From Streptomyces sp. NBC_00224 (lineage in GTDB: Bacteria; Actinomycetota; Actinomycetes; Streptomycetales; Streptomycetaceae), in NCBI RefSeq assembly GCF_041435195.1, contig NZ_CP108106.1, positions 7,515,001 to 7,579,000 on the forward strand: a stretch of 64,000 bases of DNA, written 5' to 3'. This document shows positions 49,479-54,690 of this stretch, piece by piece; the stretch's first letter is position 1, and every line of letters begins with the position of its first letter. The position numbers and the translations under genes are program-made. The notes below the pieces were generated by a model. It searched no databases. It saw nothing but the letters and a program-made list of their open reading frames with translations, and was not told the DNA's origin.

Positions 49479-49506
<28 letters not shown>

Positions 49507-50663
49507 TCATCCAGGTCGGCCACCCAGCCCTCGTGGCGCCACGGCCGCAACTCCTGCCGTGCCCGCCGCAACCGGATCGCCGGGACCCGCCCGCCGGTCG
49601 CCGAGGCCGACACGACGCACTGGTGCAACAGCTCGGCTGCCGAGCGCGGATCGTTCATACGGATCCGGGCCAGCGCCTGGTCCGTCGTGACGATCGCCCG
49701 CTGCACCTGCTCGCGCGGCGCCACAAGCGCGTCGGCCGAGACCGCGAAACGCTCGTGCGCGGCAGCTGGGTCACCGACATACAGCTCACATACGCCCTCG
49801 AAGCCCCGCAGGTGGCCCGCCGTGAACGACGTCATGCTCGGATCCCGCTGATGGCTGCGCTCCATGTCGTACCGGGCCAGCCCCAGAGCGGCCTGCGCCT
49901 GCCGCTCCTGGCCCGCCCGCGCCGCGATCTCGGCCTGGAGGGCGTGGGCCAGTGCGCGCACGACGGCGCTGCCGCTATTGCGGGCATCGCACACGGCGGC
50001 ATCCACGAGTGTCCGTGCCCCGTCGAGGCCCTGTGTCGAATACAGCGTGACCAGGGCGTGGCTCATGTGTACGACGGGGCGCCGCCACGGATCCGGCAGC
50101 AGGCTCGCTTCCCGGGCGGCGGCCGTGTACAGGCTGCGGGAAGCCACGTCATCCCGGGTCTCGAAGGCGAGGCGCCCCGCGAATGTGTGGGTGGCGACCG
50201 CGACCGCGCGCAGGTGTGGCAGCAGCGGTTCGGGCACGGGCCCGATGGCCAGCTGTCGGCAGGCCTCCAGCGCGGGGGCGAGCATCAGCTGGAGCCGTAC
50301 GAAAGGGAGGCTGCCGACCTGTGAATTGACGTCGGACACCACGGCGGACAGCGCGGCCACCGCGTGTTCATCCGTCAGGGACGGGTCGGCCATCGTCGCA
50401 GCGAGGGCGGACTGCGCTGCCGTCGACAGCAGCGCCAGCATCCCGCCGCCCTGGTCAGTCGCGGCCTGCACGAGCACCGACCGCAGCTCCGCCAACTGGC
50501 GGGCGGATTCCCCGAGATGGGCCAGCGCGTCGATCAGCTCAGCGAAGTCGGAGCCGGGGCCGAGCGCGATCTGGCCGGTCGGAGTGCGCGCGTACAGGTG
50601 GGCGAGGAGGAGTTGGTGGCGTTCGTCCGGCCGGGGCGGGTGGGCGGATTCCCAACGCGCCAC
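49479..50663 (-). pseudogene. TPR-type regulator lacking its DNA-binding N-terminus
   Basis: The readable product starts at about GTG 50663 with VARWESAHPPRPDERHQLL, the segment that normally follows the helix-turn-helix of XRE/TPR regulators. It continues with about 370 residues of TPR-like helices (AAREASLLPDPWRRPVVHMS, GFEGVCELYVGDPAAAHERF). The helix-turn-helix itself is missing: the DNA upstream encodes the SLOG protein in another frame. GGAG/GAGGA before the GTG might still allow translation, coupled to the SLOG gene by a 130-bp overlap. Best read as a 5'-truncated regulator joined to another gene by deletion; a functional headless TPR protein cannot be excluded. Confidence 0.6.
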
Positions 50664-51088
50664 TTCCTCTGCTCCGCCGTGTAGTCGAGGGTCTGCCACG
50701 TGCCCGTCGACGGCTCGATGGCGTGCGGGAAGCCGATGGTCATCGAGGCGTGGTCGACCATCCACCGGTTCCGCGCGTGATAGGCGGGGGTCCCCAGTTC
50801 CGTGGCCTTGAGCTCGACGACCTGCTTGATGCGGTCCCTCGCGCGGGCGATGGCCTGCCGGGCGTCAGCCGGCTGTTGGTCGACCGTGCCCGGCACGACG
50901 ACGGTGAGCTCTGCCGCGGTGTTCCCGGCCAGCCACACCAGGGCCATTGAGTCGATGCCGCTGGCGCCTCCGATGAAGAAGTGAGCATCGTCGGCGAACG
51001 GGCCCAGATAGGTCATGAACAGGTCGCCGTACGCGTCCAGGCTGCGGTGGCCGGTCGAGCGCGTTCCGGTAATGGCTACCTGACGCAT
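50534..51088 (-). CDS. SLOG-fold nucleotide-binding protein, C-terminus altered
   Basis: The first about 150 residues form a DprA/LOG-like Rossmannoid domain: RQVAITGTRSTGHRSLDAY, FFIGGASGIDSMALVWLAG (GGxxGID phosphate loop), LTVVVPGT and RNRWMVDHASMTIGFP. After LDYTAEQ the frame runs on into Arg/Pro/Ser-rich sequence that is the regulator gene in a wrong frame, so the natural C-terminus is lost. SLOG proteins bind nucleotides or nucleotide-derived signals and often occur in defence or stress loci. ATG 51088 has GGAG 7 nt upstream; 51115 is a possible earlier start. Function unknown. Confidence 0.65.
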   Translation of the reverse strand: MRQVAITGTRSTGHRSLDAYGDLFMTYLGPFADDAHFFIGGASGIDSMALVWLAGNTAAELTVVVPGTVDQQPADARQAIARARDRIKQVVELKATELGTPAYHARNRWMVDHASMTIGFPHAIEPSTGTWQTLDYTAEQRKWRVGNPPTRPGRTNATNSSSPTCTRALRPARSRSAPAPTSLS

Positions 51089-51186
51089 GATCAACTCCGT
51101 GTCATAGGTTGTCATATCCCCCTTGCCCTCGCGTATTGGGATCGTCTCCACATGGACACCGACCTGCGGAAACTCGCGGGCCGAAC

Positions 51187-51261
51187 ACCGGCGGCGACCA
51201 CACCAGCTACGCGCACGCCGACTGCGCCGAGGCGGCCGGAGCCGAGGTGATCACGCCGTGA
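51187..51261 (+). pseudogene. 3' fragment of the Cys/His microprotein gene
   Basis: This stretch encodes the end of the protein at 53772-53936 (GGDHTSYAHADCAE...EVITP), with a four-residue insertion (AAGA) and a changed frame upstream. The N-terminal CEVC motif and start are gone. It still ends in the TGATG overlap with the following gene, as the intact copy does. Confidence 0.6.
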
Positions 51262-51764
51262 TGGACCAGAACAGCAGAGCCATCATCGACTGGCTCGCCT
51301 CCGCGCACCCCGTGCCCACGCAAGCCCGACGCGAATTCGACGTGGGTATCGCCCTCGTGCCGACCGGGACCAAGTTCGACGCGATCCGCCTGCCCGCCGA
51401 CGTCGTACACGCGGCGGCGGGCAGCGAAGACCCGGACGCCGTCGGCGTCTGGTGCTACGCACTCGTACCGCCAGGCACGTACGCCGATTGGCGAGTGCCG
51501 GGCGTGGAGTGCCTGCGTCCAGGGACCTGGCTGGGTGTGCCCCGCCCCGACCTCACCGCACGGCCCGGCCCGCACTGGGTCCTGCCACCCCGCGCGGCGG
51601 GCAGTGTCTGCGCGGCCAAAGCCCTCGCCGACCTGGTGGCGCTTGGGCAGACCAGACCCCGGTTCCTGGTTCCGGCGGGTCCAACTCCGCACCGTCCGTG
51701 TCGCACTCGGCAGCATGTCCTACGCTTTCACCATGATCCGCGCAGTGGCCTTCGACGTCGGTGA
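51261..51764 (+). pseudogene. Damaged copy of the 164-residue unknown protein
   Basis: From ATG 51261 the sequence follows the intact gene at 53936-54430 at about 90 percent nucleotide identity. It lacks an exact 60-bp in-frame block (20 codons, AAFLAKTLPGG onward) after EDPDAV. From about 51655 it diverges and runs over the start of the HAD gene, replacing the C-terminus with unrelated Arg/His-rich residues. The upstream partner gene is only a fragment. It is most likely a decaying duplicate, though a product of 167 residues could still be made. Confidence 0.6.
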
Positions 51765-52371
51765 AACCCTGGTGCGCGACGACCGCTACTGGGCTTCCTG
51801 GGCCGACTGGCTCGACGCCCCCCGGCACACTGTGGCCGCTCTGGTCGGCGCCGTGGTCGCCCAGGGGCGGGACAACGCGGACGCGCTGCGGCTCATCCGG
51901 CCGGACATCGACGTCGCTGCGGAGTACGCGGCTCGTGAGGCTGCCGGGCTGGGCGAGTTCCTGGACGAATCCGATCTGTACCCGGACGTACGCCCCGCCC
52001 TGACGGCCCTGCGCGAGCGGGGCGTACGGGTCGTGATCGCCGGGAACCAGACGGCTCGCGCGGCCGAACTCCTGCGGGCACTGGACCTGCCCGCCGACGT
52101 GATCGCCACGTCCGGCGAGTGGGGCGTGGCGAAGCCCTCGGCCGCCTTCTTCGCCCGAGTCGTCGAGGCCGCGCGGACCGCGCCGGGCGAGACGCTGTAC
52201 GTCGGCGACCACCCGGCGAACGACGTCGGTCCCGCCCTCGCCGCGGGCATGAGGACCGCACACCTGCGGCGGGGTCCGTGGGGCCATCTGTGGGCGGACA
52301 CGGCGGAGGCGGCAGCGGCGGACTGGCGGATCGACTCCCTGGACGACGTTGTGCGGATCGTCACCGGGTAG
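51733..52371 (+). CDS. HAD-superfamily hydrolase
   Basis: A 212-residue phosphatase-like protein: motif I FDVGETLV (the second Asp is replaced by Glu, as in some family members), an alpha-helical cap, motif II VVIAGNQT, Lys in WGVAKPSAAFF and motif III YVGDHPANDVGPALAAGM. Close in layout to haloacid dehalogenase/phosphoglycolate-phosphatase types with small soluble phosphates as substrate. ATG 51733 opens directly into motif I; ATG 51715 is an alternative. It lies inside the duplicated accessory stretch and overlaps the damaged gene before it by 32 bp. Confidence 0.82.
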   Translation: MIRAVAFDVGETLVRDDRYWASWADWLDAPRHTVAALVGAVVAQGRDNADALRLIRPDIDVAAEYAAREAAGLGEFLDESDLYPDVRPALTALRERGVRVVIAGNQTARAAELLRALDLPADVIATSGEWGVAKPSAAFFARVVEAARTAPGETLYVGDHPANDVGPALAAGMRTAHLRRGPWGHLWADTAEAAAADWRIDSLDDVVRIVTG

Positions 52372-52418
52372 GCCGAGGCGAACGGCCCCAACTCGGGCTC
52401 CGGGGACGGGTCGTTCAC

Positions 52419-52467
52419 GTGCGCACAGCGCGCACGCATGGGTACGGTTCGGAGTGCAGCCCCGAAC
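52419..52467. promoter_or_regulatory. Two dyads upstream of the XRE regulator
   Basis: GTGCGC/GCGCAC (52419-52424 and 52430-52435) and GTTCGG/CCGAAC (52447-52452 and 52462-52467) lie 10-60 bp before the XRE start. They are candidate autoregulatory sites. Confidence 0.4.
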
Positions 52468-52477
52468 GGAGTTCAGT

Positions 52478-53680
52478 ATGCCCGCCGACCGTGCACGCGA
52501 GGTGGGGCAGCGCATCGCAGCCACTCGCCACTCCCGCCGTATGACACAACAAGATCTCGCCCGCGCTTCCTTCGTCTCCCTCGCCATGGTCAAGGCCGTC
52601 GAGCGAGGCGCCCGTATGCCGAGTGATTCGTCCCTCGACGCCTTGGCGGACAGCCTCGGCGTGGACCCGTCCGCGCTGCGCACCGGCTATGCGAGGACTG
52701 AGCGTCGTGTGCACCGGGCTCTGCCCGCGATCTCCGCCGCGCTGGCCGCGTACGACGCCCCGGAGGGGCCACCGGCCCGGACGTTGCCCGAGCTGCGTGC
52801 GGCGATGGACGAAGCCGTGAACTGGCGCCTGGGTGCCCAGTACGGCCGCATCTCGCAGGTGATCCCGGGCCTTCTTGAGGACAGCCTCCGCGCCCTGCAT
52901 GGGGAACGGGGCGCCCAGGAGCGCCGCGCCGCCGCGCTGGTCGTCTCCGCCGCGCGGACCGCCGATGCCGTGGCGTTCAAGTTCGGCGCCCACGACCTCT
53001 CCGCCCGTCTGGTGGACCTGATGAGATGGGCCTCGCTTCTGGCCGAAGAGCCGCTGCTGGCTGCTTCGGTCGCGTACGTGCGGACGGAGACGTTCTTCGT
53101 CGCCCGCGCCCACACGGCAGGTCTGCGCGCTCTGGAGGCGGCCATCGATGCCAGTCCGGCGCCCGATCGGGGCAGCGCAGGTGCCGCCCGGGGATCCCTT
53201 CACATGCGGGCAGCCGTCATCGCCGGGCGGGCCGGAGACCCGGAGGCGGCTGACAGCCACCTCGATGAGGCACTGCGACTGGCTGATCAACTCCGAGAGG
53301 ATGTCTACGACGGCACTGCCTTCGGTCCCGACTCGGTCCGCGTTCACGAGGTGTCGGTGGCCGTGAGTCTGGGCGGCGACCACGTCGAACGCGCCCTGAG
53401 CGCCGCCCGCGACTGGGAGCCGCCGAGCGGCATGCCCGCTGAGCGGCGCTCCGGCTTCTCCATCGAACTGGCCCGCGCCCAGTTGTGGGCCGGCCTCATG
53501 GACGATGCCTTCGAGTCGCTGAAGGTTGCTCGCCGCATCGGCCCACAGCACACGCGTGAGCACCCCTGGGCCCGTGAGACAGCGGCAACGCTACGCCGGC
53601 TGAAGCGGGCCGACGACGAGTCGTTGACGCGTTACGCGGAATGGATCGGCGCGATCGAGCAACCCCTTCGAGGGATCTGA
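52478..53680 (+). CDS. XRE-family regulator with TPR-like domain
   Basis: A 400-residue protein. The helix-turn-helix spans about 8-62 (VGQRIAATRHSRRMTQQDLA, recognition region SFVSLAMVKAVERGARMPS). About 330 residues of paired helices follow (TPR-like, AAVIAGRAGDPEAADSHLDE, ARAQLWAGLMDDAFESLKVA). Streptomyces has many of these; they are thought to sense small molecules or peptides through the TPR part. It heads the cluster of three small genes, separated from them by 91 bp containing two inverted repeats, so it probably controls that unit. The remnant at 49479-50663 is the body of a regulator of similar TPR architecture. ATG 52478 chosen because it begins just before the helix-turn-helix. 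Confidence 0.83.
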   Translation: MPADRAREVGQRIAATRHSRRMTQQDLARASFVSLAMVKAVERGARMPSDSSLDALADSLGVDPSALRTGYARTERRVHRALPAISAALAAYDAPEGPPARTLPELRAAMDEAVNWRLGAQYGRISQVIPGLLEDSLRALHGERGAQERRAAALVVSAARTADAVAFKFGAHDLSARLVDLMRWASLLAEEPLLAASVAYVRTETFFVARAHTAGLRALEAAIDASPAPDRGSAGAARGSLHMRAAVIAGRAGDPEAADSHLDEALRLADQLREDVYDGTAFGPDSVRVHEVSVAVSLGGDHVERALSAARDWEPPSGMPAERRSGFSIELARAQLWAGLMDDAFESLKVARRIGPQHTREHPWARETAATLRRLKRADDESLTRYAEWIGAIEQPLRGI

Positions 53681-53686
53681 AGGGAT

Positions 53687-53760
53687 ACAAGCTGTAGCAC
53701 TTGTGCCCCTTCCACGAGTCCACCATCTGCCGTGTCCACATGACATGACCTGGCAGATGG
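53687..53760. promoter_or_regulatory. Inverted repeats upstream of the small-gene unit
   Basis: ACAAG (53687-53691) and CTTGT (53700-53704) frame CTGTAGCA, a compact operator-like dyad just after the XRE stop. CCATCTGCC (53723-53731) and GGCAGATGG (53752-53760) form a 9-bp stem around 20 nt directly before the microprotein start. The first is a likely XRE site; the second may be a leader hairpin or operator. Confidence 0.5.
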
Positions 53761-53771
53761 GAGTCCGAAGC

Positions 53772-53936
53772 ATGAGCGACACCAACGAAGCCGCAGGCTT
53801 GGCGCAGTACCGGCGTTGCGAGGTCTGCAAGGAGCCGGGCGCCGACACCATCACCCGTATGTTCGTCGCCGAAACGGGCGGCGGCGACCACACCAGCTAC
53901 GCGCACAGCGGCTGCGCCGAGGTGATCACGCCGTGA
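53772..53936 (+). CDS. Cys/His microprotein (54 residues), probable zinc ribbon
   Basis: A 54-residue soluble protein with RRCEVCKEPGAD (CxxC) and, 25 residues on, TSYAHSGCAEVI (H-x2-C), a treble-clef-like or ribbon zinc site. ATG 53772 follows a leader hairpin. Its stop overlaps the ATG of the next gene (TGATG, one base), so translation is coupled. A broken copy exists at 51187-51261. No known family recognised; size and metal site suggest an adaptor or nucleic-acid-associated partner for the downstream protein. Confidence 0.68.
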   Translation: MSDTNEAAGLAQYRRCEVCKEPGADTITRMFVAETGGGDHTSYAHSGCAEVITP

Positions 53937-54430
53937 TGAACCAGACCGGCAGAGCCATCATCGACTGGCTTGCCTCCACGCACCCCGTACCCGCCCAAGC
54001 CCGACGCGAATTCGACGTGGGTATCGCCCTCGTGCCGACCGGCACCAAGTTCGACGCGATCCGTCTGCCCGCCCCCGTCGTCCACGCGGCCGCAGGCGGC
54101 GAAGACCCCGACGCCGTCGCCGCGTTCCTCGCCAAAACCCTGCCCGGCGGGGCCGTCATCCACGATGCGTACGGCGTCGGCGTCTGGTACTACGCACTCG
54201 TACCGCCAGGTACGTACGCCGATTGGCGAGTGCCGGGCGTGGAGTGCCTGCGTCCAGGGACCTGGCTGGGCGTGCCCCGCCCCGACCTCACCGCACGGCC
54301 CGGCCCGCACTGGGTCCTGCCACCCCACACAGCAGGCAGTGTCTGCGCGGCCAAAGCCCTCGCCGACCTCGTGACGCTCGGGCAGAACAGTCCGCGCCAG
54401 ATGCCGACGACGCCGGAGCGGACGCCATGA
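53936..54430 (+). CDS. Conserved protein of unknown function (164 residues)
   Basis: Starts RAIIDWLASTHPVP, continues ARREFDVGIALVPTGTKFDA and YYALVPPGTYADWRVPGVEC, then GTWLGVPRPDLTARPGPHWV and a helical end. Similar Streptomyces proteins resemble, from memory, the N-terminal primase/polymerase-like fold seen beside XRE regulators, but I see no convincing acidic catalytic triad, so the function is open. Its ATG overlaps the microprotein stop and its own stop overlaps the next start (ATGA). A damaged duplicate lies 2.7 kb upstream. Codon bias is normal, so the gene is well adapted. Confidence 0.7.
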   Translation: MNQTGRAIIDWLASTHPVPAQARREFDVGIALVPTGTKFDAIRLPAPVVHAAAGGEDPDAVAAFLAKTLPGGAVIHDAYGVGVWYYALVPPGTYADWRVPGVECLRPGTWLGVPRPDLTARPGPHWVLPPHTAGSVCAAKALADLVTLGQNSPRQMPTTPERTP

Positions 54431-54690
54431 GGTCCGTGATCCGCTACGCGGAATGGACCCTCGGCGCCGACACAACCCCCGGTGCCGCCGGGCCGATCCA
54501 CGTGATGGAGTGCACCACCTGCCTCGACACCTCCCCACCCTCCGACACCCGCGACGGGCCGGAGGACTGGGCGATCCGGCACACCGCACGGCACCACGAT
54601 CACGCCGGATTCCGGGCCGTCGTGACGTCGTTCAGCCGGATCACTCCGGCGCCGGGCAACCCGTTGTACGAGCAGCCGTCGCCTCGTTGA
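54427..54690 (+). CDS. DUF7848-like small Cys/His protein
   Basis: An 87-residue protein: RSVIRYAEWTLGADT, then MECTTCLDTSPPSD (CxxC) and IRHTARHHDHAGFRAVVTSF (His-rich helix), giving a C2H2-type metal site. It resembles proteins that I recall being labelled DUF7848 in Streptomyces, often beside XRE regulators. The ATGA overlap with the preceding stop makes it the third coupled gene of the unit. No membrane or export signal. Role unknown; it may bind DNA or one of the partner proteins. Confidence 0.7.
   Translation: MRSVIRYAEWTLGADTTPGAAGPIHVMECTTCLDTSPPSDTRDGPEDWAIRHTARHHDHAGFRAVVTSFSRITPAPGNPLYEQPSPR

Follow-up and report, generated by a model that had tools for sequence, protein, structure and literature searches.

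The window analysed here is a stretch of 64,000 nucleotides (G000:C1:7515001-7579000) from a 9.18-Mb, three-contig Streptomyces genome. At 52478-54690 it harbors a cassette in which the gene of an XRE-family regulator with a tetratricopeptide repeat (TPR) part is followed by three overlapping small genes, encoding proteins of 54, 164 and 87 residues (Table 1), in the layout that the initial annotation had described. The overlaps reported there are real as well, with TGATG at 53934-53938 and ATGA at 54427-54430. According to start codons set by our own gene caller, the 164-aa gene overlaps a related small gene directly 5' of it by 1 or 4 nt in 10 of 10 loci, and a called DUF7848 gene directly 3' of it by 4 nt in 6 of 6 loci, the window being included in both counts. 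Two inverted repeats (IR-A and IR-B) lie before the small-gene unit, as had been claimed, and take the same positions in orthologous loci. From sequence comparison we propose that the dyad IR-A is the operator of the regulator, which would act on repeats beside its own gene.

Table 1. Features of the cassette and of the neighboring decayed module, in window coordinates.
Feature	Coordinates	Strand	Evidence or remark
XRE/TPR transcriptional regulator, 400 aa	52478..53680	+	HTH_31 7.6e-8, HTH_3 6.7e-7, both above cut-off
IR-A, imperfect 19-nt dyad GGGATACA-AGC-TGTAGCAC, proposed operator of the regulator	53682..53700	+	arm mismatches in the window copy
IR-B, CCATCTGCC-N20-GGCAGATGG, perfect 9-bp arms	53723..53760	+	abuts the Shine-Dalgarno region and start of the first small gene
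54-aa CxxC/HxxC protein gene	53772..53936	+	
164-aa protein, degenerate primase-polymerase (Prim-Pol) fold, catalytic motifs lost	53936..54430	+	in-frame GTG at 53933
87-aa protein, Pfam DUF7848 (PF25232), C-x2-C ... H ... H	54427..54690	+	
HAD-family hydrolase, partner conserved 5' of the regulator	51715..52371	+	PF00702 4.8e-18
Decayed copy: end of small Cys/His gene and internally deleted 164-aa gene	51189..51661	+	
NsdA-like TPR regulator of the decayed module, N-terminal helix-turn-helix (HTH) part lost	49479..50765	-	NF053720 4.1e-23
SLOG/DprA-like reading frame	50534..51115	-	PF02481 0.0022, below cut-off

The regulator matches PHROG 5823 at 1.3e-78. Set against RRNPP-type HTH-TPR receptors, it has an HTH domain, and its TPR part gives sub-threshold matches only (PF13424, E 0.2; NF047558, 0.0042). 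Matches at E≤1e-60 occupy 47 places in 46 of 295 Streptomyces genomes; 30 of these places, including the window, served to make the rules described below, and 17 formed a later set. An HAD gene is found just 5' of the regulator in 30 of 30 loci (that of the window included), the other 29 HADs being 68-79% identical to the one in the window, and in 15 of the 17 further loci, indicating that the HAD hydrolase and the XRE/TPR regulator travel together as a standing pair. The inverted repeats noted earlier before the regulator (52418-52436 and 52380-52416) exist too; by eye they are not kept in the two orthologous loci compared (L076 and L079), and we rejected them as conserved operators.

In the regulator orthologues, a dyad of 17-19 nt lies 3' of the gene, followed by IR-B, which ends a few bases before the first start codon. 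The dyad varies in sequence among orthologues (GGGATACA..TGTATCCC, GTGACACA..TGTGTCAC, TACCCC..GGGGTA and TGACCC..GGGTCA). Helix class and dyad class agree in 27 of 27 classifiable loci out of the 30, under rules that were written after the data had been seen and with the class-B dyad pattern loosened to admit the imperfect site of the window. A rule-free Mantel test over 40 loci, pooled from the rule-making and later sets, revealed a correlation of 0.66 between recognition-helix and dyad distances, and a partial correlation of 0.50 given the TPR part, with 0 of 5000 permutations as high; its automatic dyad picker settled on a neighboring palindrome in two loci (L193 and L235) and on an unlikely one in a third (L231). 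Moreover, a CTTG/GTTG flank of the dyad stands at a constant distance from IR-B in 19 of 21 loci, and a fuzzy IR-B pattern occurs in 21 of the 30 regulator loci, compared to 1 of 149 control regions and 0 of 600 shuffles, the shuffles in both tests preserving base composition only. A gene-blind scan of the 295 genomes for exact IR-B returned 14 sites in 13 genomes, and the reversed pattern in 3 genomes; seven of the 14 sites lie directly 3' of a regulator orthologue (G000, G205, G054, G068, G183, G040 and G266). Altogether, the regulator/operator part of our proposal is well supported by computation.

Several observations weigh against this proposal. The other seven exact IR-B sites lie elsewhere, and the six of them examined, that of G034 not being among them, have no regulator orthologue in the 3 kb examined. 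With the rules frozen, IR-B was found in 7 of the 17 further loci, compared to a forecast of about 70%, one of the 17 (G054) having been known before the forecast. Helix and dyad classes were both defined in only 2 of these 17 loci, because the helix patterns were too narrow, and they agree in both; by eye and after the fact, those later loci in which helix and dyad are both intact seem to fit the classes. Mapped onto a TPR-part tree, the dyad labels require six changes where four is the least possible, and the changes are therefore few and mostly clade-bound. In the window itself, the dyad is imperfect and the IR-B spacer is 20 nt long, compared to 12-16 nt in the 20 other fuzzy matches, so that this operator copy may be weakened; the same two features may also mark a recent recombination. 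Behind the regulator, with about 1.5 kb of downstream flank examined, a 164-aa relative was found in 6 of the 30 loci and DUF7848 in 2 (the window and G205), the window being part of both counts. Finally, 61 of 68 loci have an XRE-family gene within two genes 5' of the 164-aa gene, compared to 4 of 28 for Prim-Pol genes and 2 of 24 for distal genes, but the Prim-Pol control loci are about 3 kb long and can understate the control, and the XRE profiles were built from neighbors of the 164-aa gene. This count and the co-variation of regulator and operator nevertheless bear out the earlier suggestion of one unit with a dedicated regulator. As a separate observation, an exact IR-B-like repeat lies inside a 369-aa gene of two genomes, with no regulator beside it (G020:C7:116405-116439 and G111:C1:197124-197158).

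The first gene 3' of the fuzzy IR-B encodes a small Cys protein in 16 of the 21 loci, 15 of them of the LHG-x-AC-x2-CG type and that of the window of its own CxxC/HxxC type. In the remaining five, a 164-aa relative comes first in three (L207, L214 and L217) and another gene in one, whereas in L203 the start-finding rule gave no start, yet a 164-aa relative follows IR-B. G205 carries a small Cys protein, a 164-aa relative and DUF7848 in the order of the window, its small protein being unrelated to that of the window. The expectation that all four genes recur in the same order was not borne out, as the exact set is rare: both a 164-aa relative and DUF7848 follow the regulator in only those 2 of 30 loci. 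A distant 164-aa relative lies directly 5' of DUF7848 in seven of its 30 top-scoring loci (L117, L118, L127, L130, L133, L134 and L142; E 8e-6 to 0.004 against a small set of proteins), and on these counts we rejected strict four-gene co-occurrence as a general rule. In the same seven loci there is also a divergent HTH-type gene, and the 164-aa relative is preceded by a gene of about 140 codons that looks resolvase-like by eye.

The 68 loci counted around the 164-aa gene derive from 75 examined, seven without a called 164-aa gene having been left out; 15 of the 75 belong to S. melanogenes or to the window genome, the window itself included, and the 60 outside loci are the top of the match list with a few passed over, not a random sample. 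A member of an accessory-gene cluster lies within three genes 5' of the 164-aa gene in 43 of the 68. We named the ten clusters HAD, HD, GNAT, CYTH, DUF6879, CutA, 2H, SLOG, flavoprotein and NUDIX; the names HAD, CYTH and flavoprotein rest on representatives above Pfam cut-offs, HD and GNAT on sub-threshold NCBIfam matches, and the others on reading. Some loci of the family have an HTH-DUF5753 regulator (e.g. L023).

The AlphaFold2 model of the 164-aa protein, with a predicted local distance difference test score (pLDDT) of 92.9, adopts a degenerate Prim-Pol fold of the archaeo-eukaryotic primase (AEP) type, and the 11 best of the listed solved-structure matches are all Prim-Pols. The 'viral' structure library gave no match at E≤0.001, named Prim-Pols being among the best rows. 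Prim-Pol/AEP enzymes have the catalytic motifs DxD/E and sxH and a third acidic residue. This set is lost from the 164-aa protein: the catalytic Asp pair is replaced, with FDAIRLP instead of the DxD strand, and motif II has no His. Arg43 is invariant in 72 family sequences. PF09250 did not match the window protein in Pfam and matched 1 of the 72 members, at E 0.045. In sequence, the family connects to Prim-Pols only by way of the small Prim-Pol-type proteins (hhalign 91%, E 1e-6), compared to 0.1% directly against catalytic Prim-Pols and at most 3.3% for 13 of 14 other neighbor families, the exception falling on a fused DUF6415-type extension. Judged from the model, the 164-aa protein looks like a catalytically dead Prim-Pol-fold protein. 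Of the roles suggested in the initial annotation, DNA metabolism is indicated by this fold alone, and the catalytic residues are gone. In addition, a family matching the DUF6415-type extension lies 3' of the 164-aa gene in 9 of the 68 loci (e.g. L090 5536-6039), and DUF6415 is fused to a 164-aa relative in L017 and P0033.

The 54-aa protein belongs to no family of Pfam, NCBIfam, PADLOC or PHROGs, and related genes lie 5' of four other 164-aa paralogues. The 87-aa protein is a DUF7848 member (PF25232, 7.8e-27; 93.7 bits against a gathering cut-off of 24.5), in which C29 and H59 are invariant over 27 sequences, H52 nearly so, and C32 not. Its AlphaFold2 model has a pLDDT of 90.3 and a predicted template modelling score of 0.65, and structure matches are weak throughout. 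Candidate metal sites are present in the 54-aa and 87-aa proteins; the 164-aa protein has none, and a metal-site reading of all three small proteins was rejected in its case. A resolvase-N-like domain, scoring below threshold (PF00239, E 0.014 in L014 and 0.005 in L015), is fused to the small Cys protein or replaces it in L013, L014, L015, L117 and L118. A short motif is common to the C-terminus of the regulator (RYAEW, 53620-53645) and the start of the DUF7848 protein (IRYAEW, 54432-54457); the two coding stretches also form an 81% DNA repeat, and the motif [YF][AS][EQDG]W is found at the C-terminus of 32 of 40 regulator orthologues. The sharing of this motif may be either chance or a docking motif.

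Matches to the 164-aa protein in the window genome number 12, comprising the window gene, two pieces of a decayed copy and nine further places, of which two are on contig C2 and two are only remote. The CxxC/HxxC protein has five intact places in this genome, each 5' of a 164-aa gene, plus a decayed remnant, and all four DUF7848 matches lie directly 3' of a 164-aa gene. Across the 295 genomes, the 164-aa family is present at E≤0.001 in 262, many matches being weak and possibly small Prim-Pol-type relatives, and reaches E≤1e-20 in 81 by hand count; DUF7848 is found in 176. A single contig scan for 164-aa relatives, with too narrow a query, returned S. melanogenes only. In that species, locus L020 occupies the same chromosomal site as the window cassette, with 92.7% identical DNA over the HAD stretch and 89.8% from the small genes through the downstream genes. 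Between HAD and small gene, the regulator of the window is replaced by a flavoprotein-family gene, a CYTH protein and a divergent XRE gene, and homology resumes at 53809, inside the first small gene. The CYTH-XRE-small-164-aa-DUF7848 stretch of L020 has an 85% identical counterpart elsewhere in the window genome (L011). Relatives of the 164-aa protein also occur in 21 plasmid records, and in Streptomyces phage TurkishDelight (L188, 36178-42576) a divergent 164-aa relative accompanies an acetyltransferase and an HTH regulator, as it also does in chromosomes. The earlier view that the unit moves or recombines is supported by this regulator swap, the multiple copies including two on contig C2 and the related phage arrangement. 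To judge from these alignments, cargo and regulator are exchangeable between cassettes; related cassettes occur in many Streptomyces species and exchange parts.

Among known Streptomyces XRE systems with small partners, WhiJ/BldB/AbaA is our best guess at a functional parallel, by analogy. WhiJ9 is reported to bind repeats beside its own gene (PMC10294661; PMC4255298), whose partner BldB does not bind DNA; loss of BldB leads to WhiJ9-dependent activation (PMC10294661). As in the systems of WhiJ, BldB (DUF397) and AbaA or IosA (PMC10294661; PMC4255298), an XRE regulator sits beside very small partner genes in many paralogous cassettes per genome, with a varying third gene and plasmid copies. 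In contrast to them, the three small proteins have no DUF397 or HATPase match, and the cassette has an HAD partner, a TPR-type regulator, a Prim-Pol-fold protein and DUF7848. It likewise resembles XRE-DUF397 pairs (Scr1/Scr2) in having an XRE gene followed by a small protein gene, but the window unit lacks DUF397. Compared to Prim-Pol/AEP proteins of PF09250 such as ORF904 of pRN1, the 164-aa protein is stand-alone and below Pfam detection, and its catalytic carboxylates and motif-II His are replaced. Since WhiJ/BldB/AbaA is the best functional parallel, we place the cassette as a variation on known XRE/small-partner systems with an unexpected component, the Prim-Pol fold. The open-access papers and listings consulted, with subscription papers and preprints outside the search, yielded no description of the cassette, nothing relevant on DUF7848, DUF6415 or DUF6879, and no match for NsdA together with tetratricopeptide.

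We tentatively propose, with somewhat less than even confidence, that the unit is a cis-acting regulatory module working like WhiJ/BldB, the three small proteins serving as a co-regulator or effector complex. The regulator would bind the 19-nt dyad directly 3' of its own gene and, once bound, control the promoter of a co-translated operon starting at IR-B. This operon would yield a catalytically dead Prim-Pol-fold protein together with the two small Cys/His proteins; the three might act jointly and without enzymatic activity, as a co-regulator or effector complex that could sense a nucleotide or nucleic acid, comparable to the BldB-type partners of WhiJ-type regulators. Homologous recombination would exchange regulator and cargo between such cassettes. 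Gene order, coupling, the predicted fold, the loss of catalytic residues, the co-variation of regulator and operator and one regulator swap were computed; from them we infer the role of the small proteins, as well as binding itself, the direction of control, complex formation, ligand and output. Streptomyces possess many small regulatory cassettes, of which whiJ/bldB is the studied type, and the present cassette represents a second type with recognizable anatomy, for which the analysis gives a directly testable named operator and a predicted fold for an orphan protein. A broader form of the proposal, which we regard as rather unlikely, is a widespread combinatorial control, in which dead Prim-Pols serve as nucleotide- or nucleic-acid-sensing co-regulators in exchangeable cassettes, and HTH regulators and 19-nt operators co-diverge into specificity classes that insulate related cassettes and admit new cargo. 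If dead Prim-Pols did sense nucleotides or nucleic acid, nucleic-acid state would be linked to gene control in antibiotic-making bacteria, and the operator classes would supply ready-made orthogonal regulator/site pairs.

Alternatively, though we consider it unlikely, the 164-aa protein and the regulator could form a switch at the front end of natural-product clusters, before genes of ribosomally synthesized and post-translationally modified peptides (RiPPs), the window cassette having lost or never had its peptide genes. A member of four RiPP-type neighbor clusters does lie within four genes 3' of the 164-aa gene, on either strand, in 13 of the 68 loci; the representatives include a TIGR04187 ATP-grasp maturase (435.6 bits, cut-off 350) and a TIGR04186 precursor (68.1 bits, cut-off 25), as in ATP-grasp RiPP (graspetide) clusters. 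According to one report, DUF397-DUF5753 regulator pairs may accompany two groups of graspetides (PMC13097080). However, 55 of the 68 loci are without these clusters there, the methyltransferase representative falls below its cut-off and the radical-SAM representative below that of every listed model, and the eight window proteins scanned gave no RiPP family match.

It is quite improbable that the unit is a toxin-antitoxin or anti-phage module, in which the co-translated small proteins would be a toxin and its partners, held by the regulator. Such a module would fit the small overlapping genes, the many copies including the decayed one and those on contig C2, the plasmid records and the TurkishDelight arrangement, and XRE-DUF397 pairs have been proposed as toxin-antitoxin systems (PMC10364602). 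Nevertheless, the PHROGs, NCBIfam and Pfam scans found no known toxin family, the three small proteins have no PADLOC match, and the weak PADLOC matches of the regulator cover the HTH region only, the best at 27 bits. Defence by family match, another role suggested at the outset, was rejected, no known component having matched the three small proteins in PADLOC.

Similarly small credence goes to IR-B being an RNA hairpin that hides the ribosome-binding site and controls translation of the small genes, IR-A alone belonging to the regulator. The gap between IR-B and the start codon is 0-11 nt in 19 of the 20 loci where a start was called, and 18 nt in one, and the leaders of the window and L214 fold more favorably than the majority of shuffled sequences (z -2.4 and -2.1); yet the arms are conserved in sequence beyond mere pairing, and a DNA site fits a dyad at this position equally well. 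That the cassette is a selfish or decaying relic of little function is very unlikely: the decayed neighbor module, the imperfect window operator and the swaps between sites would suit it, but the frames of the window unit are intact, its overlaps are conserved, 164-aa relatives, weak ones included, are as widespread as given above, and the operator co-variation implies selection.

In the decayed copy 5' of the HAD gene, the DNA is 87-88% identical, 60 nt are lost in frame, and neither the CxxC half of the small gene nor DUF7848 is left. It aligns to S. melanogenes module L022 at 79-85% DNA identity, and the left module of the window shares 83% with L022 over the TPR regulator. The truncated NsdA-like regulator is 74% identical to L022_6 from residue 44 of the latter on. 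The SLOG/DprA-like frame overlaps this truncated regulator in another frame, as if recombination had joined two genes.

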